DNA of 64,000 nt. Source: Paenibacillus sp. 481. Its GTDB lineage: Bacteria > Bacillota > Bacilli > Paenibacillales > Paenibacillaceae. Location: assembly GCF_021223605.1 (NCBI RefSeq), contig NZ_CP075175.1, positions 558,001 through 622,000 of the forward strand, given 5' to 3'. The position numbers were made by a program, and so were the translations under genes. Of the stretch, positions 1 through 17,121 are shown piece after piece; positions within the stretch are counted from its first letter, which is position 1; every line of letters begins with the position of its first letter. The notes beneath the pieces are model-generated. The model ran no database searches, was not told the DNA's origin, and saw nothing but the letters and a program-made list of their open reading frames with translations.

Positions 1-3000
1 AATGACACGCCTGGGGACAGAAGCGGTTGCAGTTCTTGCTCGGTTAACGGCACGCTGAGCATGGCGCCAGCTGGCACGCGCTGCATGAGCGATCCACGCA
101 GCACGATAAGTCGCAGCGCGTCTTCCAGCGAAAATACGCCAGCTAGACAAGCGGCCACAAATTCGCCGAAGCTATAGCCGATCATCGCATCTGGCTTCAC
201 GCCCCATTTCAGCAATAGACGCGCAAGGGCGTATTCAAAGCTGAAGATGACAGGCTGAATATACTCCGTTCGGTTCAGCTTCTCGACGGCTTCGCCATCT
301 GCGTGCACCGCAGTAGACGCATCCGTCGTATCGTCCCGCTCCGTCGTTTCCGCGGGGTACAATATAGCTTTCATATCCGCACCAGTTATATCGCGGTATA
401 TTTCGAAACATCGATCTAGCTCTGCACGGAACAGCGGTTCGTTCTCGTACAAATCGCGCCCCATGTTGACGTACTGCCCGCCTTGCCCAGAGAACATGAA
501 CACGAGCGATGGACGTGCATCTATCGCAGCAAAAGACTGCATTTTGCGTTCGTCGAACTTAGCAGGCTCACCATCCGTCGCGGTAATCGGCGTCAATGCT
601 TCCACTGCTTCCTGAGCCGTCTCACATACGAGTATGCGCCGGTAGCGGAAATCCGCACGTCCCGTTTGCAGCGTGTAAGCCACATCGGCCAGATTAGCCT
701 CCGGATTCGCCTTCATAAACGCACCAAGGTTAAGCGTCATCGTATCAAGCGCAGACGTCGTGCGAGCGGACAGCGTAATCAGCTTGGCTGGCCGACCTGC
801 ATCGGAAATGGCCCGATCTGGTGCCTTTTCCAGCACCACATGCGCATTCGTGCCACCAATTCCGAAAGAACTGACCCCAGCTCGTAGCGGATAATTGTCG
901 TTCTTCCATTCCGTCAGTGCAGTATTGACCACAAACGGGCTGTTCGCGAAATCGATGTTCGGATTCGCGCTTTCAAAGTGCAGGCTTGGCGGAATTTGCT
1001 TATGGGAAAGCGCAAGCACCGTCTTAATCAAGCCGGTAACACCAGCTGCGGCGTCCAAATGGCCGACATTGGTCTTGACAGATCCGATGCGGCAGTAGCC
1101 CGTTTCGCTGGTGGCATACGCCTTAGTCAACGCCTCGATTTCGATCGGATCACCGAGCGTCGTCCCCGTTCCGTGCGCTTCCACGTAACTAATGCTCGCC
1201 GCCGGAATACGCGCCGATGCCAACGCTTTCCGGATGACTTCCGCCTGTCCTTGAACGCTTGGCGCCGTATAGCCGACCTTGCGGCTACCGTCATTGTTAA
1301 TCGCCGAGCCTTTAATAACGGCATACACGCGATCCCCGTCCGCCAGTGCCTTGTCCAACGGTTTCAGCACGACGCAGCCTGCCCCGTCGCCACCTATCGT
1401 TCCTCGTGCCTTGGCGTCGAAGGCGCGACAATGACCGTCTGGGGACTTAACCATTCCTTCTTGGTACAAGTAACCCGATTTCAGTGGCAGCAACACCGAC
1501 GCTCCGCCTGCGATAGCCATATCGCAATCGCCATTGCGAATAGACTGACACGCCAAATGAACGGCAACGAGCGAGGTCGAGCATGCTGTCTGTACGCTCA
1601 AGGCCGGGCCTTTTAAGTTCAGCTTATGGGCAATACGTGTGCTGACCGTGTACAAGTCGTTGAGTGTATCCAGCTCGAACATGTCAGATAAATCACCATG
1701 TAAACGATCGGACAACTGCGTGAGCCAATGAAAGTTATTCGTAACACCAGCGTATAGACCGATCTGCCCACCGTATTGTCCAGGATCACAACCCGCGTCC
1801 TCCAACGCGTTCCACACGCTTTCGTGCAACAGACGGATCTGCGGGTCCATGACGGTTGCTTGGTCGGGACTATAGCCGAAGAAAGCCGGGTCGAATTTTT
1901 CGACGTTTGTCAACACACCTTTTGCCTTAACAAAATTAGGACGCTGCAACATTTCATGATCGTAGCCAAACTCGGCCAATTCTTCATCTGTGAAAAACGA
2001 AATACTTTCCTTACCTTGTTGCAAGTTGGACCAGAAGTCAGCAATCGTCTCCGCCCCAGGAAAACGACCAGCCATACCGATAATCGCTATATCGCGATTG
2101 TTGGCTTGCCCCGTCTCAGCGCCTGTAGGTGCGTCGCCCGATTCATACGACGCCTGTGATTCGAACGTAGACTCCTCTTCCTGTACGGAGCTTGCCTTCT
2201 TCTCATCCGCCAAGTATTCGGCCAACAGCGCGATCGTCGGATACTGAAACAAAGTGACGATTGGCACTTCTTTGCCGAGTTGCTTTTTCAATCTACTCTG
2301 AAGTTGAATCATATTAAGCGAGTTGCCACCCGCTTCAAAATAGCTTTCGTGGATACCCACATGCTCCCGGCCAAGCACCTCTTTCCAAGCATTTGCGATA
2401 ATTTGCTCCAGCTTCGTTTCTGGCAGCGCATGGCTATCACCGTTAGACGTGCTCGCAGCTTCCGGTTTCGGTAGCGCGGCGCGATCCACTTTGCCGTTTG
2501 GTGTAAGCGGCATGCTATCCAGTGGGATAAGATGGGTCGGGATCATATATAACGGCAGCTTTGCGCCAAGATATGCACGCAATTCGGAGACCGATAATGA
2601 TTCGTCCGCTACATAATAGGCGATTAACTCGGCTTCGCTGGCGTTCATTGCTCGCACCAATACTGCCGCTTCTTTGATCTGCTCATGCTGCAGCAGCCCC
2701 GTTTCAACCTCGCCGGGTTCAATGCGTTGGCCACGTATTTTTACTTGGTGGTCGATTCGCCCTAAGTACTCAAGGTTGCCGTCCGGCGACCAACGAGCCA
2801 AGTCCCCTGTGCGGTACATCATGCCACCTTCCTGAAATGGATCAGGTACAAATTGTGCCGCCGTCAGCTCTGGCTTGTTCAAGTACCCGCGTGCTACTCC
2901 GTCGCCACCCACGCACAATTCACCAGGAATGCCCATCGGCAGCAGTTCGCCGTTTCTGCCGAGTACATAGACCGTTGAGTTACTAATCGGACGTCCAATC

Positions 3001-5360
3001 GGAACGGAATCCGCATAGTCTCGATCAATCCGGAAACAAACGGAGACGGTTCCATTTTCCGTAGGACCGTATGCGTTCCATACCGTTATGCCAGGACAAG
3101 CAGCTCGGACCGCATTAATATGCTTCGGTGACAACACGTCTCCTCCGACATATAAATCGCGTACACCAGCAAACATCTTCGGATTTTCCTGAGACAATTG
3201 GTTAAACAATGGTGAGGTCAGCAACATGATCGTAATGTTGGTTTCACGTAAAAATGTTTCCAATTTCCCGCTGTCAAGCACGGTATGTTTAGCGATCACA
3301 TGCAAGCTCGCACCATTCAACAGCGCACCGAACAGTTCGAACGTCAGCGCGTCAAAACCGATGGCACCCGTCTGAAGCATCCGATCGTCCGGCTGCACTT
3401 GCATTAAATTTGTATTGATGACGAGCCTGACGACATTACGATGACTGACCATGACTCCTTTCGGCTTGCCGGTCGATCCCGAAGTGTACATCACGTAAGC
3501 CAAATCTTCTGGATCGTTAACGGAAGGCAGGTTGTCCACTGCGTCAACATTCCCTGCATCTTCTTCCCACACATTTTCGATAATGACTACTTCCTTATCT
3601 CCGGTTACACGTCCGCTTAGCTCAGATAAAGTCATAACGAGACGCACCTGACCATCCGCAAGCATATAGTCGAGCCTTTCCTGCGGATGATCCGGATCAA
3701 GCGGCATATAGGCGCCGCCTGCTTTCAAAATACCGAGAATAGCTGCGACCATTTCCGCATTGCGATGTGTCAGCAACCCGACCGCTTGGTCGCGCTCGAT
3801 TGCGCTGGCTCGCAGCACACGGGCAATCCGGTTCGCGCGTTCATTGAGTTCGCGGTACGTATAGGAACGGTTACCATCTACGACAGCCGTTCGGTCTGGC
3901 ATTTTCGCAACTTGCTCTTCAAATAGCTCTTGAATGTTGTTCTCTCTAGGGTAGGTTGTGAAGGTCTGGTTGATATGCTGTAATTGCTGGAGCTCTTGCT
4001 TAGTAAGGAATCCGATATCTTTCAGCTTCATATCACGGTAAGCTGTTACCTTAATCCAAGCTTGAACGATTTGATGTACGATGTTGAGGTAATGGGAAGC
4101 CAGCTTCTCCATCATATCGTCGCTATATACACATTTATTGTAAGTAAAGGCCAGTTCCAGTTGATCGGTCATCATGATGCGAATCGTCAGATCGAACTCC
4201 GTCTCTTCCTCCATACTGTGGGAAGTAATCGCAAGCGGGCCATTCGTGCCCGTGAGAACCTGATCGAGCGGGTAATTTTCCATCACGACGATCGAATCGA
4301 ACAATTTACCGCTCGACCGCAACTGGCCGTATGTTTTAATGTCCGTCAGCGAAGTACTGGCAACCTCATCGTTAGCTTGAACGGAACGGTTTACTTCACG
4401 CAGCAGTTCCGACAAACTATGATCGGAAGCCGCCTTCACGCGGAGCGGCAACGTATTAATGAACAATCCCGCCATCTGCTCAATTCCGGGAATACTCGCG
4501 TCGCGTCCTGACACCGTTGCGCCGAACATCACGTCGTCACTGTTTGTATAATGCTGTAAGAGTAAACCCCAAGCCGTATAGAACACCGACGCCTGCGTGA
4601 CTTCCTCAGCCTGGACAAACCGATTCAGTTCCGACACAAACGCCTCATCCCGTTTTTCCGTTCGGACAGCGATGATCGCCTTTTCCACCTTAGAACCGCT
4701 TTTTGCTGCTGGAATCGGCTTGTTACGCAACTCTTGTAAATACTCGCTCCAGTACGCTTCCTGCCGCTTCTTGTCTTGCTGCTGTTGCAGTTGCACGAAT
4801 TGCTTGAAGCGAGGCTTTTGCGGCAACTCAGGCGTTATTCCCTCGGCCAGCATGCGATAAGCAGTAAGCCATTCCTTCAATATAATACCGGTGCTCCAAC
4901 CATCAAATAGGATGTGGTGGAAAGTGATGAGCAGCGAATACTCCTTCTCCGTCCGTCGGCATAGCGTCAGTCGGAAAGGCACCTGATCCAAGCTAAACTT
5001 CTCCTGTTTGTCGGCCGCGAGCAGCGCATCCAGCTTATTCGTACGGGTTGCTTCATCCAGATCGGCATAATCCGCATGACGAATCTCCGGCAGATGCCGT
5101 TTCAGCACGATTTGAAGCGGCCGATTCACTTCCTCCCAACGGAACAATACCCGCAGCATCTCGTTCGCCTGTACCACATGGGCCCATGACTGTTCAAACA
5201 ACTGCTTATCAATCGTTCCGGTTATTCCTAGGACAAGTTGCTCCACATATTGCGTCGTGTCGCGGTCTTTTAAGTATTGAAGCAGCATCGCTTCCTGCAT
5301 CGGAGTCAAGGCCAAAATGTCTTCTATCTCGTTCTTGTCCAGTTTTTGCGGCGCTTTCAC
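1..5360 (-). CDS. Hybrid NRPS-PKS megasynthase, C-A-PCP-KS-AT..., partial
   Basis: Translating the minus strand gives an open frame of 1,786 codons that leaves the window at the left edge, so the C-terminus is missing. Domains in order: an N-terminal stretch like a COM acceptor; a condensation domain (HHILFDG, about residue 143); an adenylation domain (TSGSTG about 625, FDALTFE about 668); a carrier domain (GGNSL, Ser1014); a ketosynthase (TACSTS with Cys1260, EAHGTGT about 1393, then KTNVGH); and an acyltransferase with nucleophile motif GYSFGE (Ser1730), where GHSxG is usual. The hand-read adenylation pocket is D-A-F-L-Y-G-A-T-V-(K), closest to a Leu-type code I remember, so the substrate is probably aliphatic but uncertain. 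The start is GTG at 5360, 10 nt after AGGAG. The enzyme should accept the peptidyl chain from the NRPS at 10166-14695, add one amino acid and elongate it with a malonyl-type unit. Confidence 0.93.
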   Translation of the reverse strand, partial: MKAPQKLDKNEIEDILALTPMQEAMLLQYLKDRDTTQYVEQLVLGITGTIDKQLFEQSWAHVVQANEMLRVLFRWEEVNRPLQIVLKRHLPEIRHADYADLDEATRTNKLDALLAADKQEKFSLDQVPFRLTLCRRTEKEYSLLITFHHILFDGWSTGIILKEWLTAYRMLAEGITPELPQKPRFKQFVQLQQQQDKKRQEAYWSEYLQELRNKPIPAAKSGSKVEKAIIAVRTEKRDEAFVSELNRFVQAEEVTQASVFYTAWGLLLQHYTNSDDVMFGATVSGRDASIPGIEQMAGLFINTLPLRVKAASDHSLSELLREVNRSVQANDEVASTSLTDIKTYGQLRSSGKLFDSIVVMENYPLDQVLTGTNGPLAITSHSMEEETEFDLTIRIMMTDQLELAFTYNKCVYSDDMMEKLASHYLNIVHQIVQAWIKVTAYRDMKLKDIGFLTKQELQQLQHINQTFTTYPRENNIQELFEEQVAKMPDRTAVVDGNRSYTYRELNERANRIARVLRASAIERDQAVGLLTHRNAEMVAAILGILKAGGAYMPLDPDHPQERLDYMLADGQVRLVMTLSELSGRVTGDKEVVIIENVWEEDAGNVDAVDNLPSVNDPEDLAYVMYTSGSTGKPKGVMVSHRNVVRLVINTNLMQVQPDDRMLQTGAIGFDALTFELFGALLNGASLHVIAKHTVLDSGKLETFLRETNITIMLLTSPLFNQLSQENPKMFAGVRDLYVGGDVLSPKHINAVRAACPGITVWNAYGPTENGTVSVCFRIDRDYADSVPIGRPISNSTVYVLGRNGELLPMGIPGELCVGGDGVARGYLNKPELTAAQFVPDPFQEGGMMYRTGDLARWSPDGNLEYLGRIDHQVKIRGQRIEPGEVETGLLQHEQIKEAAVLVRAMNASEAELIAYYVADESLSVSELRAYLGAKLPLYMIPTHLIPLDSMPLTPNGKVDRAALPKPEAASTSNGDSHALPETKLEQIIANAWKEVLGREHVGIHESYFEAGGNSLNMIQLQSRLKKQLGKEVPIVTLFQYPTIALLAEYLADEKKASSVQEEESTFESQASYESGDAPTGAETGQANNRDIAIIGMAGRFPGAETIADFWSNLQQGKESISFFTDEELAEFGYDHEMLQRPNFVKAKGVLTNVEKFDPAFFGYSPDQATVMDPQIRLLHESVWNALEDAGCDPGQYGGQIGLYAGVTNNFHWLTQLSDRLHGDLSDMFELDTLNDLYTVSTRIAHKLNLKGPALSVQTACSTSLVAVHLACQSIRNGDCDMAIAGGASVLLPLKSGYLYQEGMVKSPDGHCRAFDAKARGTIGGDGAGCVVLKPLDKALADGDRVYAVIKGSAINNDGSRKVGYTAPSVQGQAEVIRKALASARIPAASISYVEAHGTGTTLGDPIEIEALTKAYATSETGYCRIGSVKTNVGHLDAAAGVTGLIKTVLALSHKQIPPSLHFESANPNIDFANSPFVVNTALTEWKNDNYPLRAGVSSFGIGGTNAHVVLEKAPDRAISDAGRPAKLITLSARTTSALDTMTLNLGAFMKANPEANLADVAYTLQTGRADFRYRRILVCETAQEAVEALTPITATDGEPAKFDERKMQSFAAIDARPSLVFMFSGQGGQYVNMGRDLYENEPLFRAELDRCFEIYRDITGADMKAILYPAETTERDDTTDASTAVHADGEAVEKLNRTEYIQPVIFSFEYALARLLLKWGVKPDAMIGYSFGEFVAACLAGVFSLEDALRLIVLRGSLMQRVPAGAMLSVPLTEQELQPLLSPGVS

Positions 5361-5397: not shown

Positions 5398-6549
5398 CTA
5401 CTTTTTCACTGAATATTTACGCAATCCGTATTGGGATATTACTTGCTGCTGAATTTGGCTCGTTCCCTCGATAATTTCAAGCACCTTCGCTTCGCGGCAC
5501 AGCCGTTCCGCAGGATATTCATTGCGAACACCGTTGCCACCATGAACTTGCACCGTATCGTTAGTAATTTCGACAGCCACTTTCGATGTAAAATATTTAG
5601 CAATTGTCGTCTCGTGAATCGCATCAGCATGTCCCTTTTTGCGCATCTCTCCCGCAGAAAGACAGAGCGCACGAGCAGCATGAACCTTAGTGACAGCATC
5701 GCCGATAATACCTTTGATCAATTGGAAATGATACAGCTTTTCACCAAACTGTGAACGTGATCGTGAATACTCCACCATCGCTTCAAGTGCCTCTGCGGCA
5801 ATCGCCGTTCCCGCCCACGCAATGCTGTAGCGGCCGTGATCTAACGCAGTAGATACGATATAGGTAAACCCTGCGCCCACGCTGCCAAGCACGTTCTCTT
5901 CTGGAATCTCTACTTCGTCAAGGCTGATTTCAGCAATATGAGCAGCACGGTTGCCAATCATGCCAGACATTGGCGTCGTACGTACGCCCTCTCGTTCCCG
6001 CTCGACGATGAATGCCGTTATTTGCCCCCCTGAATCAACTGCGATAACAACAAAGAAATCGGCAATAGCGGCGAACGATATCCACTTTTTACACCCGTTC
6101 AAGATATACCGTGCGCCTTCTTTCCGGTACGTCGTCTGTACATTTTTGGCATCAGATCCCACATTCGGCTCGGATAAAGCAAATGCCCCGAGCTTTTCTC
6201 CGCTTGCCATTTTCGGAAGCCACGTCCGTTTCTGTTCATCCGTGCCAAAACGTAGCATCGTCTCTCCCAGCAACGAAGTTTGCACCGTAAGCAGCGCTCT
6301 CGTATTGCTGCATGCTTTGCCGATTTGCTCCGTCAACAACCCGTAAGCGACAGGGTCAAGCCCCAAGCCGCCGTATTCTTTAGGCCAACTGGCCCCCAAA
6401 TAGCCACGCTGTGCCATTTGGTCAATCAAGCTGCGGGGAAGTTCACCGTTGATGTCAATTTCTTTTGCCAAAGGACGTACGACTTGAGCCGCAAACTGCT
6501 TCGCATCATAAAAAATTTGAGCAGAGGTATCCCAAATATGAAAACTCAT
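5398..6549 (-). CDS. Acyl-CoA dehydrogenase, FkbI/ZmaE-like (extender unit formation)
   Basis: A 383-residue flavoprotein of the acyl-CoA dehydrogenase family, full length. Typical motifs include the FALSEPNVGSD flavin/substrate loop and, near the C-terminus, EIIEGTSQIQ. In zwittermicin, xenocoumacin and FK520 clusters such enzymes act on an ACP-bound three-carbon unit in the pathway from glyceryl-ACP to hydroxy- or methoxymalonyl-ACP. That role is inferred here from the position: the stop of the discrete ACP gene lies 3 nt upstream and FkbH precedes that. A general fatty-acid dehydrogenase cannot be excluded from the protein alone. The ATG is preceded by AGGTGGTG at about 6 nt. The partial NRPS-PKS gene starts 37 nt downstream, so both are probably co-transcribed. 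Confidence 0.88.
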   Translation of the reverse strand: MSFHIWDTSAQIFYDAKQFAAQVVRPLAKEIDINGELPRSLIDQMAQRGYLGASWPKEYGGLGLDPVAYGLLTEQIGKACSNTRALLTVQTSLLGETMLRFGTDEQKRTWLPKMASGEKLGAFALSEPNVGSDAKNVQTTYRKEGARYILNGCKKWISFAAIADFFVVIAVDSGGQITAFIVEREREGVRTTPMSGMIGNRAAHIAEISLDEVEIPEENVLGSVGAGFTYIVSTALDHGRYSIAWAGTAIAAEALEAMVEYSRSRSQFGEKLYHFQLIKGIIGDAVTKVHAARALCLSAGEMRKKGHADAIHETTIAKYFTSKVAVEITNDTVQVHGGNGVRNEYPAERLCREAKVLEIIEGTSQIQQQVISQYGLRKYSVKK

Positions 6550-6552
6550 TTT

Positions 6553-6804
6553 TTACACCACCTGCGAATTTTTATCGATCAGTTTTACGATGTTGTTGAC
6601 CGTACTGAAATTGGAAATATCCAAATCTTCATTGCCAATCGTAATTTCGAACTCCTGCTCAATATAGGTAAGTAGCTTCATCGCGAACAAAGAGTTGACA
6701 AAGCCCATTTGAAAAATATGATCGTCATCCGTAAATACCGCCTCATCTTCAAATACGACCAGATTGCTTTCAATAAAGCTGCGAATTTTTTGTTTCATTT
6801 CCAT
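6553..6804 (-). CDS. Discrete acyl carrier protein for hydroxy/methoxymalonyl-ACP
   Basis: An 83-residue acidic carrier protein. The 4'-phosphopantetheine attachment site is Ser38 in FVNSLFAM, with Asn where the usual DSL motif has Asp; my recollection is that FkbJ/ZmaD-type discrete carriers share this form. The rest fits a four-helix ACP fold. It sits between the FkbH-like gene (6 nt upstream) and the dehydrogenase gene (3 nt downstream), so it should be the carrier on which glycerate is loaded and oxidised before transfer to the PKS acyltransferase. An ordinary fatty-acid ACP is unlikely in this context. Confidence 0.9.
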   Translation of the reverse strand: MEMKQKIRSFIESNLVVFEDEAVFTDDDHIFQMGFVNSLFAMKLLTYIEQEFEITIGNEDLDISNFSTVNNIVKLIDKNSQVV

Positions 6805-6809
6805 GTTAT

Positions 6810-7874
6810 TTACCCCTTTCTATTAGTAACTGGAACCTTCACCTCAATATAAGGTGGGAACGGTTGAATATGGTTTAAGTCGTTTTCAAACAAGATTTGT
6901 CCTTGTCCGTCATTCGCAATTTCCTTGAAATTAGCGAAGCGGTACGTGACATACATCATTTTGTTACGATCGGTCTGTTTAAAATCAGCTTGCAGCACTT
7001 TGCCGTCACTCTTCGCCTGTTGCATGATATACGTCAACATAACCGTGCCCACTCCGCGCGACATCACCCGACATGACATTAACAACAACTTCAAATGCCA
7101 ATTGGTCTCCTTCAACTCGAGCAGCGCAAGTCCGATCTTGCCGTAAGAACCGTATTTGTCCGTCAATTCGCATACGAGCAATAGATGGTCGGAAGACTGT
7201 CTGAACTGATCCAGTTCCTCGTAGCTATACGTATTGCCTGTCGCATTCAATTGATTCGTGCGGACAGTCAACTCCTCTGCTCGTTTCAAATCTTCCTCGC
7301 GCGCTTCGCTGATGACGAACTGCATGCCGAGAGAGCTAAGAAAGGATTCCTGTGGACCAGTAAACGTGTCCTCTTCCTGTTTACGTTGGATATCTTCCAA
7401 ATACATAGCGCGGCGGCGCACCGAATCTTCCGTAATGAAACGGGGATTCAGGCGGGGATGCGCGAGTAAGTTCACGTACTCTGTCGCATCCAAACATGTC
7501 ACATCAGGATGCTCACTCTGGACCTCATCACGTTCGAATATTTGGTCATCGATGAACAAAATCGTATCCATCCCGATGTTCAAGTTAGTGCAAATGTTAG
7601 CAACCGACACCGATTTGGCGTTCCAGTTAATTTCCGGATACAAAAAATACTGATCGATGCCGAATTCACGCAATTTGTCCATCGCTGCATGGACCTCGTT
7701 CTTGCTTGCAACCGAATGAAGGATGCCACGCGAATCCAGTTCCACAATGATGTCGCGGATGCCCGCTTTTAGTTCAACATTGTCCGCTTCCAGTAGAACG
7801 CCTTCCCACATCGTATGGTCCAAGTCCCACACGATACATTTGATTTCCTTGGCCTTATTTACGGCCTTCTCCAT
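6810..7874 (-). CDS. FkbH-like HAD-IIIC protein, glyceryl-ACP synthase
   Basis: A 354-residue protein of the HAD subfamily IIIC / FkbH type. The DxDxT motif is DLDHT at residues 17-21, followed by W23, and a second acidic motif FIDDQ follows near residue 110. The C-terminal half looks like a GNAT-type domain, usual for FkbH proteins. Family knowledge: these enzymes take 1,3-bisphosphoglycerate, dephosphorylate it and load a glyceryl group on a dedicated ACP, the first step to hydroxymalonyl- or methoxymalonyl-ACP. The ACP gene follows after 5 nt, which supports this role. No O-methyltransferase (FkbG) is visible in the window, so the unmethylated hydroxymalonyl unit is favoured. The cluster continues past the left edge, so a methyltransferase could still exist. 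Confidence 0.92.
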   Translation of the reverse strand: MEKAVNKAKEIKCIVWDLDHTMWEGVLLEADNVELKAGIRDIIVELDSRGILHSVASKNEVHAAMDKLREFGIDQYFLYPEINWNAKSVSVANICTNLNIGMDTILFIDDQIFERDEVQSEHPDVTCLDATEYVNLLAHPRLNPRFITEDSVRRRAMYLEDIQRKQEEDTFTGPQESFLSSLGMQFVISEAREEDLKRAEELTVRTNQLNATGNTYSYEELDQFRQSSDHLLLVCELTDKYGSYGKIGLALLELKETNWHLKLLLMSCRVMSRGVGTVMLTYIMQQAKSDGKVLQADFKQTDRNKMMYVTYRFANFKEIANDGQGQILFENDLNHIQPFPPYIEVKVPVTNRKG

Positions 7875-7901: not shown

Positions 7902-8612
7902 TTAGTACGACTTCGTCGGCATGCGTACTGCTTCGTTTACGATTGAAACGACTTCAGGAGTATGCACATTAATAAAAAAGTGGCCGCCCGTAAACTTGTA
8001 GATGCGGCAATCCTGACTGCCATATCTCGACCATTCGTCAATCACGCACCATTCCGTGGCAACGTCATCCTCTGCGTACAACACCGAAATATCGCACTGC
8101 AGTGGAGCTACGTCCTTAGGGCGATACGTTTCTACCACCTGCATGTCCCTGCGTAGCACAGGCATAAACATCCGCTTCAGCTCTTCACGTTGAAACAACT
8201 CGTCCGCTGTTCCTCCCAGCCGCTTAATTTCTTGCCACAGCTGCTCGTCGGACAGCGTATGAATTTGGTAGCTCTTTACCGCATGGGGAGGGTACACGCC
8301 CGACACGAACAAATGCGCCGGTTCTCGGCCCGTCTCCCGCTTGATGGCTTGCGCCAGCTCGTGAGCGACGAACGCTCCCATGCTGTGGCCGAATAGCATA
8401 AACTCCGAGTCGTCCAGTTCTTGCTTCATACGCCCCAGCAAATCTTCAACCATCTCATCCATGCTGCTGGACAGCGGATCTGCCATCCTACGCCCTCGTC
8501 CGGCTGGTTCGAGCGGATGCAATTCGATAGACTCATTCAAGTAGCGCTTCCAGCGTGTGTAGCACGTTGCAGAGCCTCCCGCATACGGGACGCAGAACAG
8601 TTTGTATTTCAT
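7902..8612 (-). CDS. Type II thioesterase (GrsT/SrfAD family)
   Basis: A 236-residue alpha/beta hydrolase with all marks of an external NRPS/PKS thioesterase: CVPYAGGSA at the N-terminus, PAGRGRR near residue 37, nucleophile Ser77 in GHSMGA, an acidic residue in YAEDD, and the catalytic His in GGHFF near the C-terminus. Its family role is editing: hydrolysing wrong or stalled acyl groups from carrier domains. The ATG follows the stop of the peptidase gene directly, and GGAGGTG lies 6 nt upstream inside that gene, so the two are translationally linked. The length is normal and nothing is missing. Confidence 0.95.
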   Translation of the reverse strand: MKYKLFCVPYAGGSATCYTRWKRYLNESIELHPLEPAGRGRRMADPLSSSMDEMVEDLLGRMKQELDDSEFMLFGHSMGAFVAHELAQAIKRETGREPAHLFVSGVYPPHAVKSYQIHTLSDEQLWQEIKRLGGTADELFQREELKRMFMPVLRRDMQVVETYRPKDVAPLQCDISVLYAEDDVATEWCVIDEWSRYGSQDCRIYKFTGGHFFINVHTPEVVSIVNEAVRMPTKSY

Positions 8613-10148
8613 CTACTTCACCTCCTTGAAGGGAGCAGACACAACCCGCCGCTGCGTTGTCGGGAACAAATAAGCCGCGAGCCAATAACAGAAGGCGCCT
8701 CCCCCAACGATATACAGGGCATATGCAGACCATACAACAGGGATAGGTGCCCAGACAGCCACCACATCAAGCGGCAGTCCCGCGAACACGCCTTTAAAAA
8801 GTTTGCCGATTCCCCAATAGCAAGCTACCGCAAGGATAAGGATGGCGGCGAACACGATACTGCGCCTTCCCTTGAGCGGCATGAATACGCGGCGGCGTTG
8901 ACGGAGCTGCATCCCGATGCGGATCGCAGCGCTTGCCAGCACGATCACAAGTACACCAAGAACGATGAATACAACGAACGCAATCCGGTCGAGCATCGGA
9001 TATAAATCATCTACTGCTGGCGGCGGCTCATGGCCACGCAGCAAATTCATAACACCGTTCCCCATTTGAAACGTGTAAGCCGAATTAATATTGGCCATGA
9101 TGCCGACACCAAACCGCTCTTTCGGGCGCAAAACAAAGAACGATGAGTAATTCGGATTGGAACCTTGGTGCCATATTTGTTCACCATTTGCCGCAACTGA
9201 CCAGCCCGCGGCATAATAAGATTGATCCGTATTCGGCTTCACCGACGTATCGGATATATGAGAACGCTTAATCAGCTCCCGATGGGGTGCGGACAAATCG
9301 TTCTTCGCTCCAAGTTGCAGCAGCAGCCACTGTCCGATATCCTCGACATTCGATATCAAGTAGCCAGCAGGCGTATTCCCTTGGTAGCGCGGCGCGTTAT
9401 ACGGATGATTTGACCCAAATGCGACCTTGTATCCCGTCGCCAGCTTCCCGCTATCCTTCAACTGCGCCATCGGAACGGTATTCTTCAACCCCAATTGTTG
9501 CAACAGCTGACTCATATAGTGTTCATAGGACATACCGGACACCTGCTGAATAACGAGTCCCAATACGTCGTAATTAATGGTGGCATACAAAAATTTGCTG
9601 CCCGGGCGATGATCCAGCTCTGTTCCAGACAGCGCTCTAACGGTCTCTTCCAGCACCCCCTCCCCCATGCCGATAGGAATGGAGGCGAGTGTACGAAAGG
9701 GTACCCCGCTCGTTTGATACAAAAACTGGGCGATCGTCACGTTTGCCGGCTGGCCTTGATCATACAGCTCCAACCATGGAATGTAGCGCTTCACAGGATC
9801 GTCCAGCCGAATCTTGCCTTGCTGCTCTAATTGCAAGATAGCTAAGGCTGTAAACGCCTTCGACGTGGATCCCAGTTCAAATAAGGTTGAACTTGTAACT
9901 GGTATCCCCGCTTCCCGATCGGCTTGTCCAAATTCGTTGGCATACACCACACGGTCACCGCTTACGACAACGACTGCGGCGCCAGGAATGTCGGCCTCCT
10001 TGATCTGTGCCTCGACATACCGCTCGATGGCTGCAACGTCAACGTTCGGAAGCTCTCCCGCGGCATAGGCTTGCCCCGGGGAGATAGCCGGCAGCGAGCC
10101 GCAAAGCAACGCTGCCACGAGCATATACAATGCTAGTTTCTTTCCCAC
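8613..10148 (-). CDS. ClbP/XcnG/ZmaM-like prodrug-activating D-Asn peptidase
   Basis: A 511-residue membrane protein. Residues 1-30 form a signal peptide ending AYA. The body is a class C beta-lactamase-like serine peptidase: SxxK as S94-T-S-K97, Tyr188 in a YAT triplet where YxN is usual, and H327-Q-G329. Three hydrophobic helices follow at about 388-410, 430-447 and 462-492. This build (signal peptide, periplasm-facing or extracellular peptidase, three C-terminal helices, about 500 residues) matches the ClbP/XcnG/ZmaM family, which cuts N-acyl-D-Asn off inactive precursors at export. The neighbour upstream is an Asn-type C-A-PCP-E NRPS, exactly the enzyme that makes such caps. GTG start with GGGGAGA 6 nt upstream. 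A penicillin-binding-protein-like role is the alternative, but context argues against it. Confidence 0.85.
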   Translation of the reverse strand: MGKKLALYMLVAALLCGSLPAISPGQAYAAGELPNVDVAAIERYVEAQIKEADIPGAAVVVVSGDRVVYANEFGQADREAGIPVTSSTLFELGSTSKAFTALAILQLEQQGKIRLDDPVKRYIPWLELYDQGQPANVTIAQFLYQTSGVPFRTLASIPIGMGEGVLEETVRALSGTELDHRPGSKFLYATINYDVLGLVIQQVSGMSYEHYMSQLLQQLGLKNTVPMAQLKDSGKLATGYKVAFGSNHPYNAPRYQGNTPAGYLISNVEDIGQWLLLQLGAKNDLSAPHRELIKRSHISDTSVKPNTDQSYYAAGWSVAANGEQIWHQGSNPNYSSFFVLRPKERFGVGIMANINSAYTFQMGNGVMNLLRGHEPPPAVDDLYPMLDRIAFVVFIVLGVLVIVLASAAIRIGMQLRQRRRVFMPLKGRRSIVFAAILILAVACYWGIGKLFKGVFAGLPLDVVAVWAPIPVVWSAYALYIVGGGAFCYWLAAYLFPTTQRRVVSAPFKEVK

Positions 10149-10165
10149 CTTACTTCTCCCCTTTA

Positions 10166-13100
10166 TCAGTTGAAGAGAACGTCCAACTCGTCCTGACTCA
10201 GCTTTACCGTCTCGAAGTCGGACGGTGTAAAATCAGCCTGTTCCTGGTCCGTACAGAACCGGATCAGTTCGCCCAGCCGCTGCATAAAGGTCTTCATCAA
10301 GCCCTCCATCGTACCCTCGCTGAACTTGGCCGTGCTGTATGTCATGCGGACGCGGAGCGTCTTTCCAATCACCATCGCTACGATATCGACAAGGCAAGTC
10401 AGCTTGTTGCTCGGACATATGTCGCTGCCTGCATCTTCCGCGGCGAGATCGATAACCGAGCTGTGCAGATGGTTATCGATCTCACCCATGTAATTGAAGC
10501 GGATCAACCCGCGTTCGGGCTCCGCGACACGGCGGGACAAGTATGACAAAATGCCGTAGTCGATCCCTTTGTGCGGTATCGAGCGCAGCTGTTCCTTCAC
10601 GCTCTTGATGGCACCAGCTGGCTCACTTCCGGACAAACGAAGGTTAACTGGATACATCGAGGTAAACCAACCAACCGTTCTGGACACGTCGATATCTCCG
10701 ATAATTTCCTCGCGCCCATGCCCCTCCAGCTCAATGGTAAGCTTGTCCTTGCCCGTTAAATCGTTCACTGCCAAAGACAGCGCTGCCACAAGTAAGTCAC
10801 TCGTCTGCGTGTGGAATGCCGTATTGGCATTACCCAACAGCTTGTGCGTTGCTTCCGCAGACAGTTCCTCGGCAAGCGTTTCACAAATGGCATGCCGATC
10901 GTCATCTGTCTCCCTATCAACGGGCAGAGAATGTTCCACCTCGTTCACGACAGACTGCCAATATTCGCTCTGCTCAGAGGCCCGCTCACGGCTGTATGTC
11001 TCAACGGCTTCCGCCCACGCTTGCAGCGAATCCGTCTTGGCTGGCAACGTGGTGACTTGCCCGTCCAACGCCGATTGCAGCAGCCGATCGAAGTCCTCCA
11101 GCAAAATCCGCCAAGACACGCCATCCACGACCAAATGATGTGCCGTCAACAGAAGGCGCTGGCCCTCTTCTCCCATATCGAATGACAGCGCTTTAATTAA
11201 CAATCCTTCGTCAAGGCGAACACTCCCTTTGAACGCTTCGGCACTGCTCTTCAGCGCCGCCGCTCGCTCTGAAGCCGGATAGCTGGCAAGGTCGCAGCTG
11301 CTAACTTCCACGTCTGCTTGTTCGACAGCTCGATAAGCGAGACAACCTTCGGCCTCGACGTAATGCAGCCTTAAGGCGTCATGATGTTGAATCAGCGCAT
11401 ACAGCACATCGCGCAGCTGCTCAGTCGTCGCTGTGCGTGTTAAACGAATCAAGACAGATTGGGCAAAGTAATGCGGATTGTTCCACGGTCTGCTGAAAAA
11501 CCACGATGTAATTGGCAGCGGCCGCACTGTTCCTTCGCACAGCCCTTGTTCCACTTTACGAGGCGCGTTTCTTTCGACCAAAGCTGCCAGTTCGTGAATG
11601 ACCGGGTAACTTAAAATATCTTGTACCTTTAGGCGATAGCCGGCCGCGTTTATTTTGGACGCGATTTGGAGTGCCTTGATGGAGTCCCCACCCATGCGGT
11701 AGAAATGATGATGGGCACCTACCCCCTCCACTTGCAGCACGTCTGCGAATACGCCTGCCAAAAACGCTTCAACGGCAGTTGCTTCCCCAGTATCTGATGT
11801 CTCACATACCGGCTCGGGAATCGGCAGCAGCTTGCGATCCACTTTGCCGTTTGGTGTTAACGGCAGTTGGTCAAGCCCGATGAAATAAGCCGGAATCATA
11901 TACGACGGTAGCACCTCTGTCAGCTTCATTCTCAGTTCCAGAGAAGTTAGCTCTCTCTTAGCCACATAATAAGCGGCGAGATGCTGTTGGCCGTCATCTC
12001 CGGTCTGATCGATGACAATTACTTCTTCCACTGCCTCTATGGCAAGCAGTTGATTTTCGATTTCTCCCAATTCAATGCGGTAGCCTTTGATCTTCACCTG
12101 ATGATCAACCCTACCGAGATAACTGATATTGCCGTCGCTGTAACGAATGGCCAAGTCGCCTGTTCTGTACATGCTCCTGCCTCGTATAAACGGGTTATCC
12201 ACAAAGCGCTCTTGCGTCAGCTCCGGTCGATGCAAATAGCCACGGGCCACACCGTCCCCGGATATGTATATCTCCCCAACCGCCCCATGCGGAACCGGCT
12301 CCAAGTGTCGATCCAGTATATAAATTTGCGTATTGTCGATCGGCTTGCCTATCGATACGGAAGTTCTCTTATCGCTTTCCGGATCGTATCGGTAAATCAT
12401 GCAGCCGACCACCGTTTCCGTCGGGCCGTATTCGTTATAAATATCGATGCGTTCATGAAACTGCTTATAGATATCGGCAGCTAACGCCGCCTTCAAATCT
12501 TCCCCGCCGACGATAAACCGCCGGACTACAGATTCACGGGTGTCTATGTCTTTCATCAACGCTAGATGCGCTGGCGTCAGTTTGATGACCGTCGCTTTGT
12601 TATCACGAATAATGCGCTGCAAAATAAATTCGCTGCCGTCATCCTCGTATATTTCGATTCGATTGCCACTAATTAAAGGTGTAAAGATCGATGTAACCGT
12701 CAAATCGAATGCGATGGAGGAATAGAGCGCAAACACATCGTCGCTTGCACGAATATACGTCTTATTCGCCCACCAGATATAGTTCACCAGTCCGCGGTGC
12801 TCGATCATCGCTCCCTTCGGATTTCCTGTCGAACCCGACGTGTAAATGAGGTATACCAAGTCGTCCGGTTTACTCGTTACTGGCAGGTTGTGCTTGTCAT
12901 CCGCATACTGTCGTTCGTCATCAAGTGCGATAACGGTACCCTCGTAGGATAAATGCGTCCATTCTTCGCCTTGTGTTAACAGAAGCGAAGCTCCGCTGTC
13001 CCGCAAAATATACTCGATCCGTTCCTTCGGATAGTCGGGATCTATCGGTAAATAGGCCCCTCCTGCCTTGATGACTGCCCATATTCCAACCACAATCTCC

Positions 13101-14695
13101 AAGGAATGTCGGGCCATGATCGCGACCGGCTTGTGCGAGTCCATTTCACTCTTCTGCAACGTTCGAGCCAATTGATTCGCGCGCTCGTTCAACTGGCGGT
13201 ATGTAAGTGAACGCCCCTTGCATGATACGCTAATACGATCCGGCGACCGTTCGACTTGCTCTTCGAACAATTGCTGAATCGTTTGTTGTGAAGGATAAGC
13301 CTGTTCCGTCACATTGCAACCATATAGAAGTTCCTCTCGCTCCTCTGGGGACAACAGTCGTAACTCACCAATCTGCCCCTCCGGCTGCCCGATGATCTGA
13401 TTCGTTATATAGAGAAGTCGCTGGTACATTTCATCAATCTGTGCTTCCGTATAATCGCCTGTCTTGTAATCAAAGTACAGCTCCAGTCCTTCATCCGCAG
13501 ACCATTCGGTAACGATAAGCTGTAGCGGATACAGCTGATGGCCGTTATGTACTTCAATCTGTCTCATGTCCCATCCAGGACCGAATTTGCTATCGTACTT
13601 GGTATTGTAATAGTTAACGCAAACTTGAAATAACTGATCCAAGCCCCGTTTCTGAAGTTCAAGATCTTGTACGAGCATGTTGTAAGGGTATTTCTGATGA
13701 AAATAACATTGGAGAAGTTCTTGGTTGATGGATTTCATAAATGTGGAGTAAGTCATGTCGTGTTCGATATCGGCGAGAAACGGCATCGTGCTCGTGAACA
13801 TCCCGAAGGTGTTTTTCTCTTTGACCCCAGTTCGGTTAAGTACGGGGGTGCCGATTATAATACGGTCTTGCTGATTCGCTTTGTGGAGATACAAGAGCAT
13901 CACCGCTACGAATAACGTATTTAAAGAAATCGATTGCGCGTGTGCAAATTGGCGTATAGCCTCTGAGGTGTCCGGTTGTAATAGAAACGGCTTGCGCCGG
14001 CCGGTCGTGTGGCTTGCTGAGGTGTGTAGATCAACGTTGTCAACGTGCTCGAATTTTTTTTGCCAAAACTGTTTATTTTTCAAAAACCGTGAGGATTCCA
14101 AATACTTCTGCTCTTGCTCGATGTAGCCTAAATAGGTGTGGCGCGTCTGCTGTCCAACTTCCTCACCCTGCATCAACTGCGTATAAATTTGGTTGATTTG
14201 TGAGGTCATTAATTGAAAACACCAGCCATCGGAGATGATATGGTGAACTTTCGTCAAGTAGGCGCTCTCCGTGTCGCTTACTTTGACTAGGGCGAAATCA
14301 TAAAGAAATTCACCATCTAAAGGCAACGGCTTGGCAAACTCCCCGCTGACCCAATCCTCGAGACCGACATTCGATTCGCTTGCCGCAAGATCGATATACG
14401 GTAACGTTTTGCGACTATACTCGGTCACAGCCTGCTGTACCGTACCATCCTGATTCATAATCCTAATGCGGATGGCATCATTTTGTCGAATAAACTCATT
14501 AATCGCTTCTTCCAATAAAGAAAAATCTACGGGACCGTTAATTTTAACAAATCCCCCGATATTATAAATACTCGTATCGGGATACATATTCTCCACATAC
14601 CAAATACGTTTCTGTGGATGTGTTAACGGATACAGGTTACTCACGTTCAGAGATAAAACCTCCAGTCCGATTAAATTACGGATATTGTGGAACAT
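10166..14695 (-). CDS. NRPS C-A(Asn)-PCP-E, N-acyl-D-Asn prodrug loading module
   Basis: A 1,509-residue single-module NRPS. Domains: condensation (HHIISDG about residue 151), adenylation (TSGSTG about 620), carrier (GGDSIK about 1002, the form typical before epimerases), epimerisation (HHLVVDGVSWR about 1187). My hand alignment to GrsA gives the pocket D-L-T-K-I-G-E-V-G-K, one conservative change from the known Asn code DLTKLGEVGK. A COM-donor-like tail (LSQDELDVLF) ends the protein. No upstream module exists in this operon, so the first C domain is inferred to N-acylate the Asn with a fatty acid, as in XcnA and ClbN. The product would be N-acyl-D-Asn, handed to the NRPS-PKS at 1-5360. ATG at 14695 has AGGA 8 nt upstream and overlaps the previous gene; GTG at 14644 behind GGAGG is an alternative. 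Confidence 0.94.
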   Translation of the reverse strand: MFHNIRNLIGLEVLSLNVSNLYPLTHPQKRIWYVENMYPDTSIYNIGGFVKINGPVDFSLLEEAINEFIRQNDAIRIRIMNQDGTVQQAVTEYSRKTLPYIDLAASESNVGLEDWVSGEFAKPLPLDGEFLYDFALVKVSDTESAYLTKVHHIISDGWCFQLMTSQINQIYTQLMQGEEVGQQTRHTYLGYIEQEQKYLESSRFLKNKQFWQKKFEHVDNVDLHTSASHTTGRRKPFLLQPDTSEAIRQFAHAQSISLNTLFVAVMLLYLHKANQQDRIIIGTPVLNRTGVKEKNTFGMFTSTMPFLADIEHDMTYSTFMKSINQELLQCYFHQKYPYNMLVQDLELQKRGLDQLFQVCVNYYNTKYDSKFGPGWDMRQIEVHNGHQLYPLQLIVTEWSADEGLELYFDYKTGDYTEAQIDEMYQRLLYITNQIIGQPEGQIGELRLLSPEEREELLYGCNVTEQAYPSQQTIQQLFEEQVERSPDRISVSCKGRSLTYRQLNERANQLARTLQKSEMDSHKPVAIMARHSLEIVVGIWAVIKAGGAYLPIDPDYPKERIEYILRDSGASLLLTQGEEWTHLSYEGTVIALDDERQYADDKHNLPVTSKPDDLVYLIYTSGSTGNPKGAMIEHRGLVNYIWWANKTYIRASDDVFALYSSIAFDLTVTSIFTPLISGNRIEIYEDDGSEFILQRIIRDNKATVIKLTPAHLALMKDIDTRESVVRRFIVGGEDLKAALAADIYKQFHERIDIYNEYGPTETVVGCMIYRYDPESDKRTSVSIGKPIDNTQIYILDRHLEPVPHGAVGEIYISGDGVARGYLHRPELTQERFVDNPFIRGRSMYRTGDLAIRYSDGNISYLGRVDHQVKIKGYRIELGEIENQLLAIEAVEEVIVIDQTGDDGQQHLAAYYVAKRELTSLELRMKLTEVLPSYMIPAYFIGLDQLPLTPNGKVDRKLLPIPEPVCETSDTGEATAVEAFLAGVFADVLQVEGVGAHHHFYRMGGDSIKALQIASKINAAGYRLKVQDILSYPVIHELAALVERNAPRKVEQGLCEGTVRPLPITSWFFSRPWNNPHYFAQSVLIRLTRTATTEQLRDVLYALIQHHDALRLHYVEAEGCLAYRAVEQADVEVSSCDLASYPASERAAALKSSAEAFKGSVRLDEGLLIKALSFDMGEEGQRLLLTAHHLVVDGVSWRILLEDFDRLLQSALDGQVTTLPAKTDSLQAWAEAVETYSRERASEQSEYWQSVVNEVEHSLPVDRETDDDRHAICETLAEELSAEATHKLLGNANTAFHTQTSDLLVAALSLAVNDLTGKDKLTIELEGHGREEIIGDIDVSRTVGWFTSMYPVNLRLSGSEPAGAIKSVKEQLRSIPHKGIDYGILSYLSRRVAEPERGLIRFNYMGEIDNHLHSSVIDLAAEDAGSDICPSNKLTCLVDIVAMVIGKTLRVRMTYSTAKFSEGTMEGLMKTFMQRLGELIRFCTDQEQADFTPSDFETVKLSQDELDVLFN

Positions 14696-15696
14696 GGCAG
14701 TGTTCCTAGCGCTTCAATTACCGCTTCCAAGACCCGTTTCTCGCTCTCCATAAGCTCGTTGATCTGCTTAATTCCTTTGCCTAATATGAAATCGTCTCCA
14801 GTGAGCGCATATTTCATCATTTGATGACGTAAGTCACTCGCTTGCTCCTCGATCGGTTGAAAGCAATTGCCAAGCGAATCTGGAAGCAGACCTTGCTCAC
14901 ATAAATAAGCAATGCGAAGTCCCATGACCTTCTTGTGCTCCCACAAAATATGGATCGGCCTAATATCGCGTCTCTGCGCAAGCACGGGCAAATTGTGAAT
15001 GAGCGTGGGATACACATCAATCCCAAATGCCGCTTCCACCGTATTGCACGTCGCTCGATCACGCAAGGATACATTTCTAGCAGAAACATAGTCTTGTAAC
15101 GAATGTTGGATAAACGCCGGATCCAAGTCGTAACTGCCCTTTTTATTGAACCTAAACAGGTACACCTGCTCTTTATAGTTGTCCGTCCATTCTAGATCCC
15201 GGAACCCCTGCTCCAATTCGTGGAACGGTACGCTCGTCTTGCGGAACTGCATCTCTTCGTCATACCCGAGTACGAAGAATGTCCGCTTCGCTTGATCATA
15301 GCCGTAAATTAAAATGTCATGTGCGTAGTGTGTTTGCTGGTAAACGCGACGGCGTGGGATATAGAACTCATCTACATATAAAGAAACCGTATACCCCGAA
15401 TCTATGCAATCGACTAAAAAATTCACAACGCCACGCGGCGAATCTAGTATGCTCTCTCGTTCTATTTTTTGCGTAGTTAGCCACGGACAACGGAGGAAAT
15501 CTTCTCCATAAAATGTGAGCGGTAACGATCGTGCGGCTCGACTTCCATCAAGATCGAAATGACAATAAAGATGTATAAAATTACTGTAAAACCATGGAAT
15601 CCCCTCTTGTCGGGTGAGTACCGTACAAAGAGGATAGGCCACATATTGGTATCCAATAATAGGAGGAATAGCCAATTCTAACTCCTTGACGGTCAA
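14671..15696 (-). CDS. BtrH-like (butirosin H N-terminal domain) protein, tentative
   Basis: A 341-residue protein, first gene of the minus-strand biosynthetic operon. I recognise it only weakly: the segment LYVDEFYIPRRRVYQQ, followed by HYAHDILIYGYD and FFVLGYD, resembles the papain-like N-terminal domain of BtrH (acyl transfer from a carrier protein in butirosin synthesis) found in some NRPS clusters. A conserved His lies in AHDILIYGYD and possible nucleophilic Cys in PLCTVL or LYCHFD. Role here is unknown; an acyltransfer or tailoring step is a guess. The frame can be extended to 15720, but a strong GAGAGGTGG stands 7 nt before TTG at 15696, so that TTG is preferred. Its end overlaps the NRPS start by 25 nt. 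Confidence 0.6.
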   Translation of the reverse strand: MTVKELELAIPPIIGYQYVAYPLCTVLTRQEGIPWFYSNFIHLYCHFDLDGSRAARSLPLTFYGEDFLRCPWLTTQKIERESILDSPRGVVNFLVDCIDSGYTVSLYVDEFYIPRRRVYQQTHYAHDILIYGYDQAKRTFFVLGYDEEMQFRKTSVPFHELEQGFRDLEWTDNYKEQVYLFRFNKKGSYDLDPAFIQHSLQDYVSARNVSLRDRATCNTVEAAFGIDVYPTLIHNLPVLAQRRDIRPIHILWEHKKVMGLRIAYLCEQGLLPDSLGNCFQPIEEQASDLRHQMMKYALTGDDFILGKGIKQINELMESEKRVLEAVIEALGTLPCSTISVI

Positions 15697-16260
15697 AATA
15701 AAACCACCTCTCTTTGCCAAAAGTAATAATATGCAAAACTAATGAGATATAATGGTATCTTATTTCATAAACCGACCAATCATCTCATTTTATTACATAT
15801 TAGCCTTAAATAATATTCGCACATGTGTATTTTATTGTCAATATATATTTAAATATTTAACAATTATTTTATAAAACCAACTGCAAACCCAATTTATGGA
15901 CAACAACCATCTTGACGATTTTGAAACACGGAGTTACCATGGTGAAGAATCGAGTCCTGTTTTTTCAAACCGTTCTCTATTACGCATCCTTCTCCACATT
16001 TTAGGATGTTTCCTTTTTGCATGTTTAAAAACGAGCGATATACAACATGTGCTTGTAGACAACCTGTGATTAGATTTCGCTTGTCTGAATGATGTCGATA
16101 ACTTCATTCTGCAGAAATCTTCCATGGGTCTTTTTTATGTCCGGTTGTCTCACTTCAATAAGCCTTTTCACCTCGTGTTACCTCTTTGAGCAGGCTACCG
16201 ATCAGATTCCCTGAAGTTCCGCCATTTTTAATCGAATAATCGAAACGGAGGATTCAAACA
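15697..16260. other. Divergent intergenic region of the biosynthetic cluster
   Basis: 564 bp between the minus-strand operon and the plus-strand dehydrogenase. The left half (15720-15890) is markedly AT-rich compared with the flanking genes and presumably holds the operon promoter, but no -35/-10 pair is good enough to call. Short frames at 15934-16125 have no recognisable domain or ribosome binding site. A small inverted repeat (AGACAACC at 16057-16064 and its complement at 16143-16150) is the only structure seen. No regulator gene is present. Confidence 0.6.
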
Positions 16261-17121
16261 ATGACGAATAACGTGCAAAAAATAGGTGTTATCGGAGCAG
16301 GTACGATGGGGACATGCATCACGGCCGATCTGCTGTTTCATGATGTGCCTTGTGTGCTGGTCGATATTTCGGAGCACGCGCTTGTGAAAGCGAAAGCTGA
16401 GATTGAGAAAGTACTGCGGTTCGCGGTAACGATCAACAAAGATTTGCCGAAAGTGAACGCGGCGGACGCCATGAAAAAAGTTCTCTTTACGACGGACATT
16501 CGTGAGGTTGCCGATTGTTCATATATCATTGAAAATGTTCCTGAAAATTGGGAGTATAAAGAGAGTGTCTACAAACAATTAGACGACATTTGCGGAGAAG
16601 AGGTTTGCTATGCCGCTAATACGTCTTGCCTGTCCATTACTAAGCTTGGCGCGGCGACGAAGAAGCAAGAACAGGTCATCGGCGTGCACTTCATGAATCC
16701 CTCTTATTTGAAAAACACGGTCGAGGTCATCAAAGGCTACCATACATCAGATGCTTGTGTGGCGGAAACCGTAAATGTTCTGAAACTGATGAACAAAGAA
16801 GCGATCATCGTGAACGATTATCCCGGCTTTGTCAGCAATCGGATTTCCCATCTGTTCATGAACGAGGCTGCGTTTGTTGTGCAGGATGGAGTTGCCGACG
16901 CGGCGCAGGTCGACGCCATATTTAAAAAATGTTACGGACACAAAATGGGCCCGTTAGAAACAGCCGACCTGATCGGACTGGATACTGTGGTCCACTCGTT
17001 AGACGTCTTGTACCAAAGCTACCAAGACTCCAAGTTCAGATGCTGCCCTTTGCTACGTAAAATGGTAGACGCCAACCTGCTCGGCCGCAAGACGGGCAGA
17101 GGCTTTTATAAATATGGATAA
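16261..17121 (+). CDS. 3-hydroxyacyl-CoA dehydrogenase, FkbK/XcnB-like
   Basis: A 286-residue NAD-dependent dehydrogenase of the 3-hydroxybutyryl-CoA dehydrogenase family. The Rossmann motif is GVIGAGTMG at residues 9-17. HFMNPSY near 140 and the C-terminal domain GPLETADLIGLD are typical. In hydroxy/methoxymalonyl-ACP pathways the FkbK-type enzyme oxidises glyceryl-ACP before the FkbI-type enzyme acts. The other three pathway genes (FkbH, ACP, FkbI) lie at 5398-7874, and this gene supplies the missing step although it is on the other strand. ATG with GGAGG 9 nt upstream. A primary-metabolic beta-oxidation enzyme is the alternative, but no other beta-oxidation gene is nearby. Confidence 0.85.
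   Translation: MTNNVQKIGVIGAGTMGTCITADLLFHDVPCVLVDISEHALVKAKAEIEKVLRFAVTINKDLPKVNAADAMKKVLFTTDIREVADCSYIIENVPENWEYKESVYKQLDDICGEEVCYAANTSCLSITKLGAATKKQEQVIGVHFMNPSYLKNTVEVIKGYHTSDACVAETVNVLKLMNKEAIIVNDYPGFVSNRISHLFMNEAAFVVQDGVADAAQVDAIFKKCYGHKMGPLETADLIGLDTVVHSLDVLYQSYQDSKFRCCPLLRKMVDANLLGRKTGRGFYKYG

Follow-up and report, generated by a model that had tools for sequence, protein, structure and literature searches.

Two adjacent minus-strand genes within a 64,000-nucleotide stretch of the Paenibacillus sp. 481 genome (contig NZ_CP075175.1, positions 558,001 to 622,000, in the following called the window) encode a nonribosomal peptide synthetase (NRPS) with the domain order condensation-adenylation-peptidyl carrier-epimerization (C-A-PCP-E) and a serine peptidase resembling ClbP and AmiB. 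We put at roughly 85% the probability that the two genes form the prodrug module of an amicoumacin-class cluster of NRPS and polyketide synthase (PKS) genes. The core of the ~46-kb cluster is colinear with the amicoumacin (ami) genes and the whole order recurs in 11 other genomes; therefore, an amicoumacin-class cluster including an acyl-D-Asn prodrug step is the reading favored here. The original prediction for this stretch had proposed a toxic product with self-protection, which homology narrows down to the amicoumacin class, and both open reading frames (ORFs) were recovered exactly as given there, only the start of the NRPS being uncertain.

Pfam searches of the NRPS returned Condensation (two stretches), AMP-binding, AMP-binding_C and PP-binding. 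Of the two Condensation stretches, the second represents an E domain, as had been predicted, since TIGR01720 exceeded its cut-off and the stretch grouped with the E domain of AmiA; the C-A-PCP-E order matches the AmiA-type prodrug starter. The first C domain fell into a 13-row starter clade with 99% SH-like support (FastTree, 102 rows) and not among the LCL domains, and upstream of the NRPS a BtrH_N-family gene and then opposite-strand genes were found, with no further NRPS. This C/E-domain tree and the peptidase tree described below are quick trees, and the lichenysin- and DhbF-type labels in the former were assigned by us from gene sizes. The adenylation code was re-derived as DLTKIGEVGK, with nine positions read by alignment according to the GrsA convention and the tenth (Lys) read separately. 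The code had been described as one change away from the Asn code, but is better described as identical to the codes of AmiA and AmiI. By this identity the A domain is assigned to the Asn type, as predicted, and no assignment to another residue was obtained. Regarding the start of the NRPS, the ATG at 14695 overlaps the upstream gene, while a GGAGG lies upstream of the alternative starts CTG 14650 (8 nt) and GTG 14644 (14 nt).

The neighboring peptidase matches the Beta-lactamase/S12 family (PF00144, E = 6.3e-63) and carries the S-x-x-K and Tyr of S12 enzymes as S94-T-S-K97 and Y188-A-T190. It has a hydrophobic segment at residues 5-23 as well as C-terminal hydrophobic stretches, and its predicted model contains helices at 382-416, 428-454, 460-466, and 469-494, with Trp466 and Pro468 present in the C-terminal three-helix transmembrane (TM) domain. 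The anticipated signal-peptide serine peptidase with three C-terminal helices was thus recovered. A D-Asn pocket consisting of S/T188, H/N257 and a strictly conserved N331 (ClbP numbering) has been described for prodrug peptidases, and Asn at position 188 is usual in the wider S12 family (PMC9889268). The window peptidase has T190, N258, and N331 as pocket residues and does not have the Asn of DD-peptidases and Flp. In the peptidase tree (every third relative sampled, rooted on paralogues, with long branches among these) it belongs to a separate clade with 100% support among the prodrug peptidases. The grouping is as the original prediction had it, and not with DD-peptidases. A Foldseek search with the predicted model ranked full-length ClbP first, TM domain included (VIA-align is a re-examination of Foldseek hits). 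N-acyl-D-Asn cleavage is a predicted activity of this enzyme.

For a wider comparison, 65 relatives were fetched by patterns containing N258 and SxxK, and conservation at these positions among them is partly due to this selection, while T190, N331, W460, and W466 lie outside the patterns; of the 70 loci L081-L150, five yielded no ORF that could be used and were left out. Among 80 named peptidase loci (up to 10 kb on each side), an E domain was present in 59 and an A domain in 64. Sixteen of the 21 loci without E domain hold stand-alone peptidases of 458-511 residues, and some loci stop at contig ends. A tblastn search of plasmids for close relatives listed 15 of 1793 records, among which identity did not exceed 30.1% and none covered 80%.

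A reference for the ami genes was obtained by searching 397 genomes from the order of Bacillus sp. SA1-12 with the terminal FkbH region, which matched three of them. Two (G195 and G414) hold a cluster with protein sizes within ~10 residues of the published B. safensis AmiA-O table (PMC12366304), and the third (G521) holds a C-FkbH-PCP protein inside an unlike cluster. The Paenibacillus sp. 481 genome is a single contig of 5.69 Mb in which a profile search found 115 condensation-family matches, counting E domains and split pieces. The cluster continues far past the left edge of the window and spans genome positions 529.4-575.1 kb; counting the DMFase-like and alkaline phosphatase genes moves its start to 525.1 kb. 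It is transcribed leftward, the gaps being short for the most part as far as the last PKS gene, in the order BtrH_N, C-A-PCP-E, peptidase, type II thioesterase, FkbH, ACP, acyl-CoA dehydrogenase family (Table 1), C-A-PCP-KS-AT-KR-ACP-C (3106 residues), half C-A-PCP (890 residues), KS-AT-KR-ACP, KS-AT-ACP-KS-AT-KR-ACP, KS-AT-ACP-C-FkbH-PCP, BpsA-like, GNAT, a second FkbH (FkbH2), a second ACP (ACP2), DMFase-like, and alkaline phosphatase. The ami order of NRPS-PKS, Leu module and four PKS modules is present, and the gene set for hydroxymalonyl-ACP (3-hydroxyacyl-CoA dehydrogenase [3HCDH], FkbH, ACP, and acyl-CoA dehydrogenase) is complete, with the 3HCDH gene divergent and outside the operon. 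Identities to the ami proteins beyond those in Table 1 are 32% for the Leu-position NRPS, 43-49% for the PKS proteins, and 38% for the alkaline phosphatase.

Table 1. Features of the cluster inside the window (window positions; percentages are identities to the ami counterpart).
Feature	Position	Strand	Remarks
5′ part of NRPS-PKS C-A-PCP-KS-AT-KR-ACP-C	1..5360	-	AmiI-like (43%); 3106 residues; leaves the window and reaches genome position 554040
Acyl-CoA dehydrogenase family protein	5398..6549	-	AmiH-like (64%)
Stand-alone ACP	6553..6804	-	AmiG-like (57%)
FkbH-type glyceryl loader	6810..7874	-	AmiF-like (65%); predicted for hydroxymalonyl-ACP
Type II thioesterase	7902..8612	-	AmiD-like (40%)
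S12 peptidase, ClbP/AmiB-like	8613..10148	-	39%; N-terminus signal-like, catalytic domain predicted to be extracytoplasmic, three TM helices at the C-terminus
Starter NRPS C-A-PCP-E	10166..14695	-	AmiA-like (41%); true start 14695, 14650 or 14644
E domain	10199..11503	-	Grouped with AmiA E
PCP	11576..11761	-	GGDSI form
A domain	11825..13267	-	Code DLTKIGEVGK (Asn, predicted)
C domain	13325..14638	-	Starter-type (N-acylating), HHIISDG
BtrH_N-family protein	14671..15720	-	Slightly above Pfam cut-off; first gene of probable operon
3HCDH-family protein	16261..17121	+	Divergent; best candidate in the genome for the AmiE step (48% to AmiE)

Two structural details are common to both clusters. The 890-residue NRPS (genome positions 551371-554043) begins with the C-terminal half of a C domain, right after a protein that ends in a full C domain, and AmiI and AmiJ are arranged alike. 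The last PKS protein (genome positions 532264-538740) ends in C-FkbH-PCP, for which lactonizing release may, with a question mark, be considered as a role. This end was rejected as a novelty, as AmiM of G195 and G414 carries it as well; the eight-module count given for the ami assembly line seems to omit it (PMC4894447).

A search of 147 genomes, including the one of the window, yielded peptidase matches (E<=1e-70) in 51. Besides the window's genome, 11 genomes contain a stand-alone orthologue with 52-64% identity, and the gene order is the same across the fetched stretches of all 11; among the clusters are those of P. profundus YoMME, P. apiarius, P. sp. UNC499MF, P. sp. 2.1, P. dendritiformis, P. 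lutrae, and P. sp. FJAT-26967. The peptidase directly adjoins the starter NRPS in all 12 clusters (window included). The 3HCDH gene lies within the operon in 10 of the 11 other clusters and was not found in the fetched stretch of the remaining one (G001). In P. dendritiformis (G014; L010/L076) the orthologous peptidase is broken by a stop codon in this assembly, while other clusters have intact copies. Peptidase and terminal module, the two features compared in these cases, also occur in P. solani, P. sp. EZ-K15, and P. bouchesdurhonensis. A separate small cluster (L221:1460-11767) encodes an aromatic ammonia lyase, two KS-like proteins and a C-A-PCP-reductase NRPS.

Homology allows a pathway to be predicted. 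The starter C domain would acylate the activated Asn with a fatty acid and the E domain would convert Asn to its D form, after which the following protein, by its DCL-type C domain, would hand acyl-D-Asn over to an amino acid of aliphatic kind (Val/Leu/Ile-like code). This residue would be extended once with a hydroxymalonyl unit, and the Leu module together with four malonyl PKS modules (KR, none, KR, none) would assemble a dihydroisocoumarin. The capped, inactive chain would leave the cell through a transporter, and the membrane-anchored peptidase would cut off acyl-D-Asn, freeing the amine needed by the active, presumably toxic compound, which would amount to self-protection. Adenylation codes were read in six of the 12 clusters. 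The A2 codes are aliphatic and vary by species (DAFLYGATVK in the window, DAFLIGAVIK in P. profundus), and the cluster is thus predicted to place an aliphatic residue where amicoumacin has Asn. The A3 code is DAWFLGNVVK, the canonical Leu code, in all six; at this position AmiJ of G195 and G414 has the Gln-like code DAQDLGAVQK. In the first PKS module the AT motif reads GYSFGE, which is also that of AmiI, and the other four ATs have GHSxGE with HAFH. Codes and AT motifs fit a dihydroisocoumarin that is derived from Leu and linked to an amino-dihydroxy acid originating from an aliphatic residue, the type to which PM-94128 and Y-05460M-A belong. For such a product, [M+H]+ is calculated as 423.249 (A2 = Leu/Ile) or 409.233 (Val) with a core fragment of 250.144, for the C12/C14-capped precursors as 719.459/747.490 (Leu/Ile) or 705.443/733.475 (Val), and for free acyl-Asn as 315.228/343.259; calculated alike, amicoumacin A gives 424.208, against a published observed value of 424.2082 (PMC12366304). 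As a proposal, the product may be an isocoumarin of the Y-05460M-A/PM-94128/baciphelacin kind; like these, the expected product is a Leu-derived 8-hydroxydihydroisocoumarin with an aliphatic amino-dihydroxy acid. The literature searched assigned no cluster to these compounds, and no assignment of an amicoumacin-like cluster to Paenibacillus was found in the open-access literature. For P. profundus SI 79, the literature lists production of an isocoumarin with activity against S. aureus (PMC12843358). For P. profundus M4.5, antiSMASH showed no cluster like the known isocoumarin ones in a 2025 study, which noted two PKS-NRPS clusters (PMC12698334).

The product might also differ from a plain dihydroisocoumarin, with the added gene block making a polyamine, aminopropyl or glyceryl conjugate, which we consider rather unlikely. 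BpsA-like, GNAT, FkbH2 and ACP2 genes occur in 12 of 12 clusters and the DMFase-like gene in 11 (alkaline phosphatase in eight, split in one), and in two ami clusters the queries were answered by FkbH/ACP paralogues only. The BpsA-like gene (genome positions 530928-532097, minus strand) is the sole PF01861 match above cut-off in the genome, and its product retains GDDD, the Asp of DPP, and the Tyr290 position. However, the cluster agrees with the dihydroisocoumarin line in PKS order, Leu code, and AT types, the C-FkbH-PCP end is common to AmiM, and the acidic C-terminal carrier cluster reported for BpsA (PMC12979288) was not seen; instead, the C-terminus is CxxC...CPxC in 12/12 clusters. A polyamine product of the BpsA_C gene is weakened, and not more than that, by this end and by a His at the Glu259 position (pairwise alignment, counted by hand), set against the retained residues. 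The DPPE motif is DPPY in all 12 clusters, a change for which the sections seen of PMC12979288 give no role and which is not a published active-site change. Tentatively, and with low confidence, an additional layer of masking can be envisaged, in which FkbH2/ACP2 (glyceryl-ACP), GNAT and the BpsA-like alkyltransferase would attach a glyceryl or aminopropyl-like group in place of phosphorylation by AmiN, and the DMFase-like amidohydrolase and/or the alkaline phosphatase would remove it. The acyl-D-Asn cap would be present in addition, to be removed by a peptidase whose acyl-binding linker has been rebuilt (Leu460/Val462), and the product would be a new dihydroisocoumarin.

Considerably less probable is that acyl-D-Asn is kept in a true lipopeptide-polyketide, with the peptidase removing something else or acting on products of rivals. 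It is suggested by a second peptidase that bears the complete prodrug signature, Trp460 included, at genome positions 5461117-5462631 (L054/L055, L173), which has no condensation-domain match within ~90 kb among the matches listed; therefore, such enzymes may serve other roles. Cleavage in the colinear ami cluster, where amiB deletion led to acyl-D-Asn preamicoumacins and AmiB-expressing cells turned one into amicoumacin (PMC4894447), argues against this, as does the invariable peptidase-NRPS adjacency. The second peptidase is preceded by genes for, judged by eye, a response regulator, a histidine kinase and an FtsX-like permease, homologues of which precede the peptidase in four of 14 other loci searched (L112, L121, L138, L142; two of the 14 begin at the peptidase); a sensing/detoxification module is possible. 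That the window peptidase would be an ordinary S12 hydrolase (DD-peptidase, Flp/FmtA-like or esterase) merely adjoining the NRPS is hardly credible, as the Flp alignment ends before the TM domain, the structure search favors ClbP over its full length, the same adjacency holds in every cluster, and T190, N331, and W466 are missing in 12 of the 13 distinct S12 paralogues tabulated for the genome (27 PF00144 matches; 15 rows besides the window's, two pairs being the same ORF), the thirteenth being the second peptidase.

Several observations weigh against the assignment to an amicoumacin-class prodrug module. By sequence, the best PDB match of the peptidase is Flp (2.2e-57), slightly above ClbP (3.3e-56). 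Trp460, strictly conserved in a published set of 271 prodrug peptidases though not termed essential (PMC9889268), is replaced by Leu, with Val at 462, in all 11 complete orthologues (window and 10 others); helix 460-466 is still predicted, and among the 65 other relatives one has Val at 460. Identities are low for the peptidase (37-39% to AmiB) and for the C and E domains (just 35-36% to those of AmiA). The window 3HCDH is just 45-48% identical to the in-operon copies of the relatives, whereas those copies share 81-93% identity with that of P. profundus, and a whole-genome search found no closer one. No exporter was recognized inside the cluster; a major facilitator superfamily (MFS) gene lies ~7 kb past the alkaline phosphatase gene, with the intervening genes only partly typed, whereas an MFS gene adjoins AmiA in the fetched ami cluster. 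Finally, the reported producer P. profundus SI 79 differs from the compared strain YoMME.

The acyl-D-Asn prodrug mechanism itself is already known; new are the absence of Trp460, reported as strictly conserved, from a clade with all other tested marks, and a conserved, unexplained gene block. The prodrug strategy is hereby extended to a conserved, predicted dihydroisocoumarin cluster of Paenibacillus, and concrete candidate genes become available for isocoumarin antibiotics of this genus, such as that of P. profundus.

Compared with amiA-O (B. subtilis 1779; B. safensis CB729; G195, G414), the cluster has in common C-A-PCP-E, peptidase, thioesterase, hydroxymalonyl genes, NRPS-PKS, Leu-position NRPS, three PKS proteins ending in C-FkbH-PCP, and alkaline phosphatase. 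It differs in the A2 code (aliphatic here, Asn in ami), in the leading BtrH_N gene where ami has AmiC after the peptidase, in the displaced 3HCDH of the window genome, and in the additional BpsA-like, GNAT, FkbH2, ACP2, and DMFase-like genes; in ami, no AT was recognized in the first module of AmiL. AmiC and the kinase AmiN gave no tblastn match (E 1e-4) in the fetched stretches of all 12 clusters; AmiN, reported absent also from the X. bovienii ami cluster, is accessory to the class. With ClbP, AmiB, XcnG and ZmaM (XcnG itself was outside the comparison) the peptidase shares the S12 fold, SxxK and Tyr, D-Asn pocket residues, TM domain and linker Trp466, whereas its TM2-TM3 linker has Leu460/Val462 in place of Trp and mostly Phe. 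A colibactin- or zwittermicin-type cluster was rejected because module order and tailoring genes fit amicoumacin, these two clusters themselves standing outside the comparison. The zwittermicin, edeine and paenilamicin systems have an acyl-D-Asn cap, shown or proposed, and a related peptidase in common with the one described here, but theirs is fused to an ABC half-transporter (~1,100 residues; PMC9889268), while the Paenibacillus enzyme stands alone and belongs to a different assembly line; on zwittermicin and edeine producers, a boronic-acid inhibitor of ClbP has been applied (PMC9889270).

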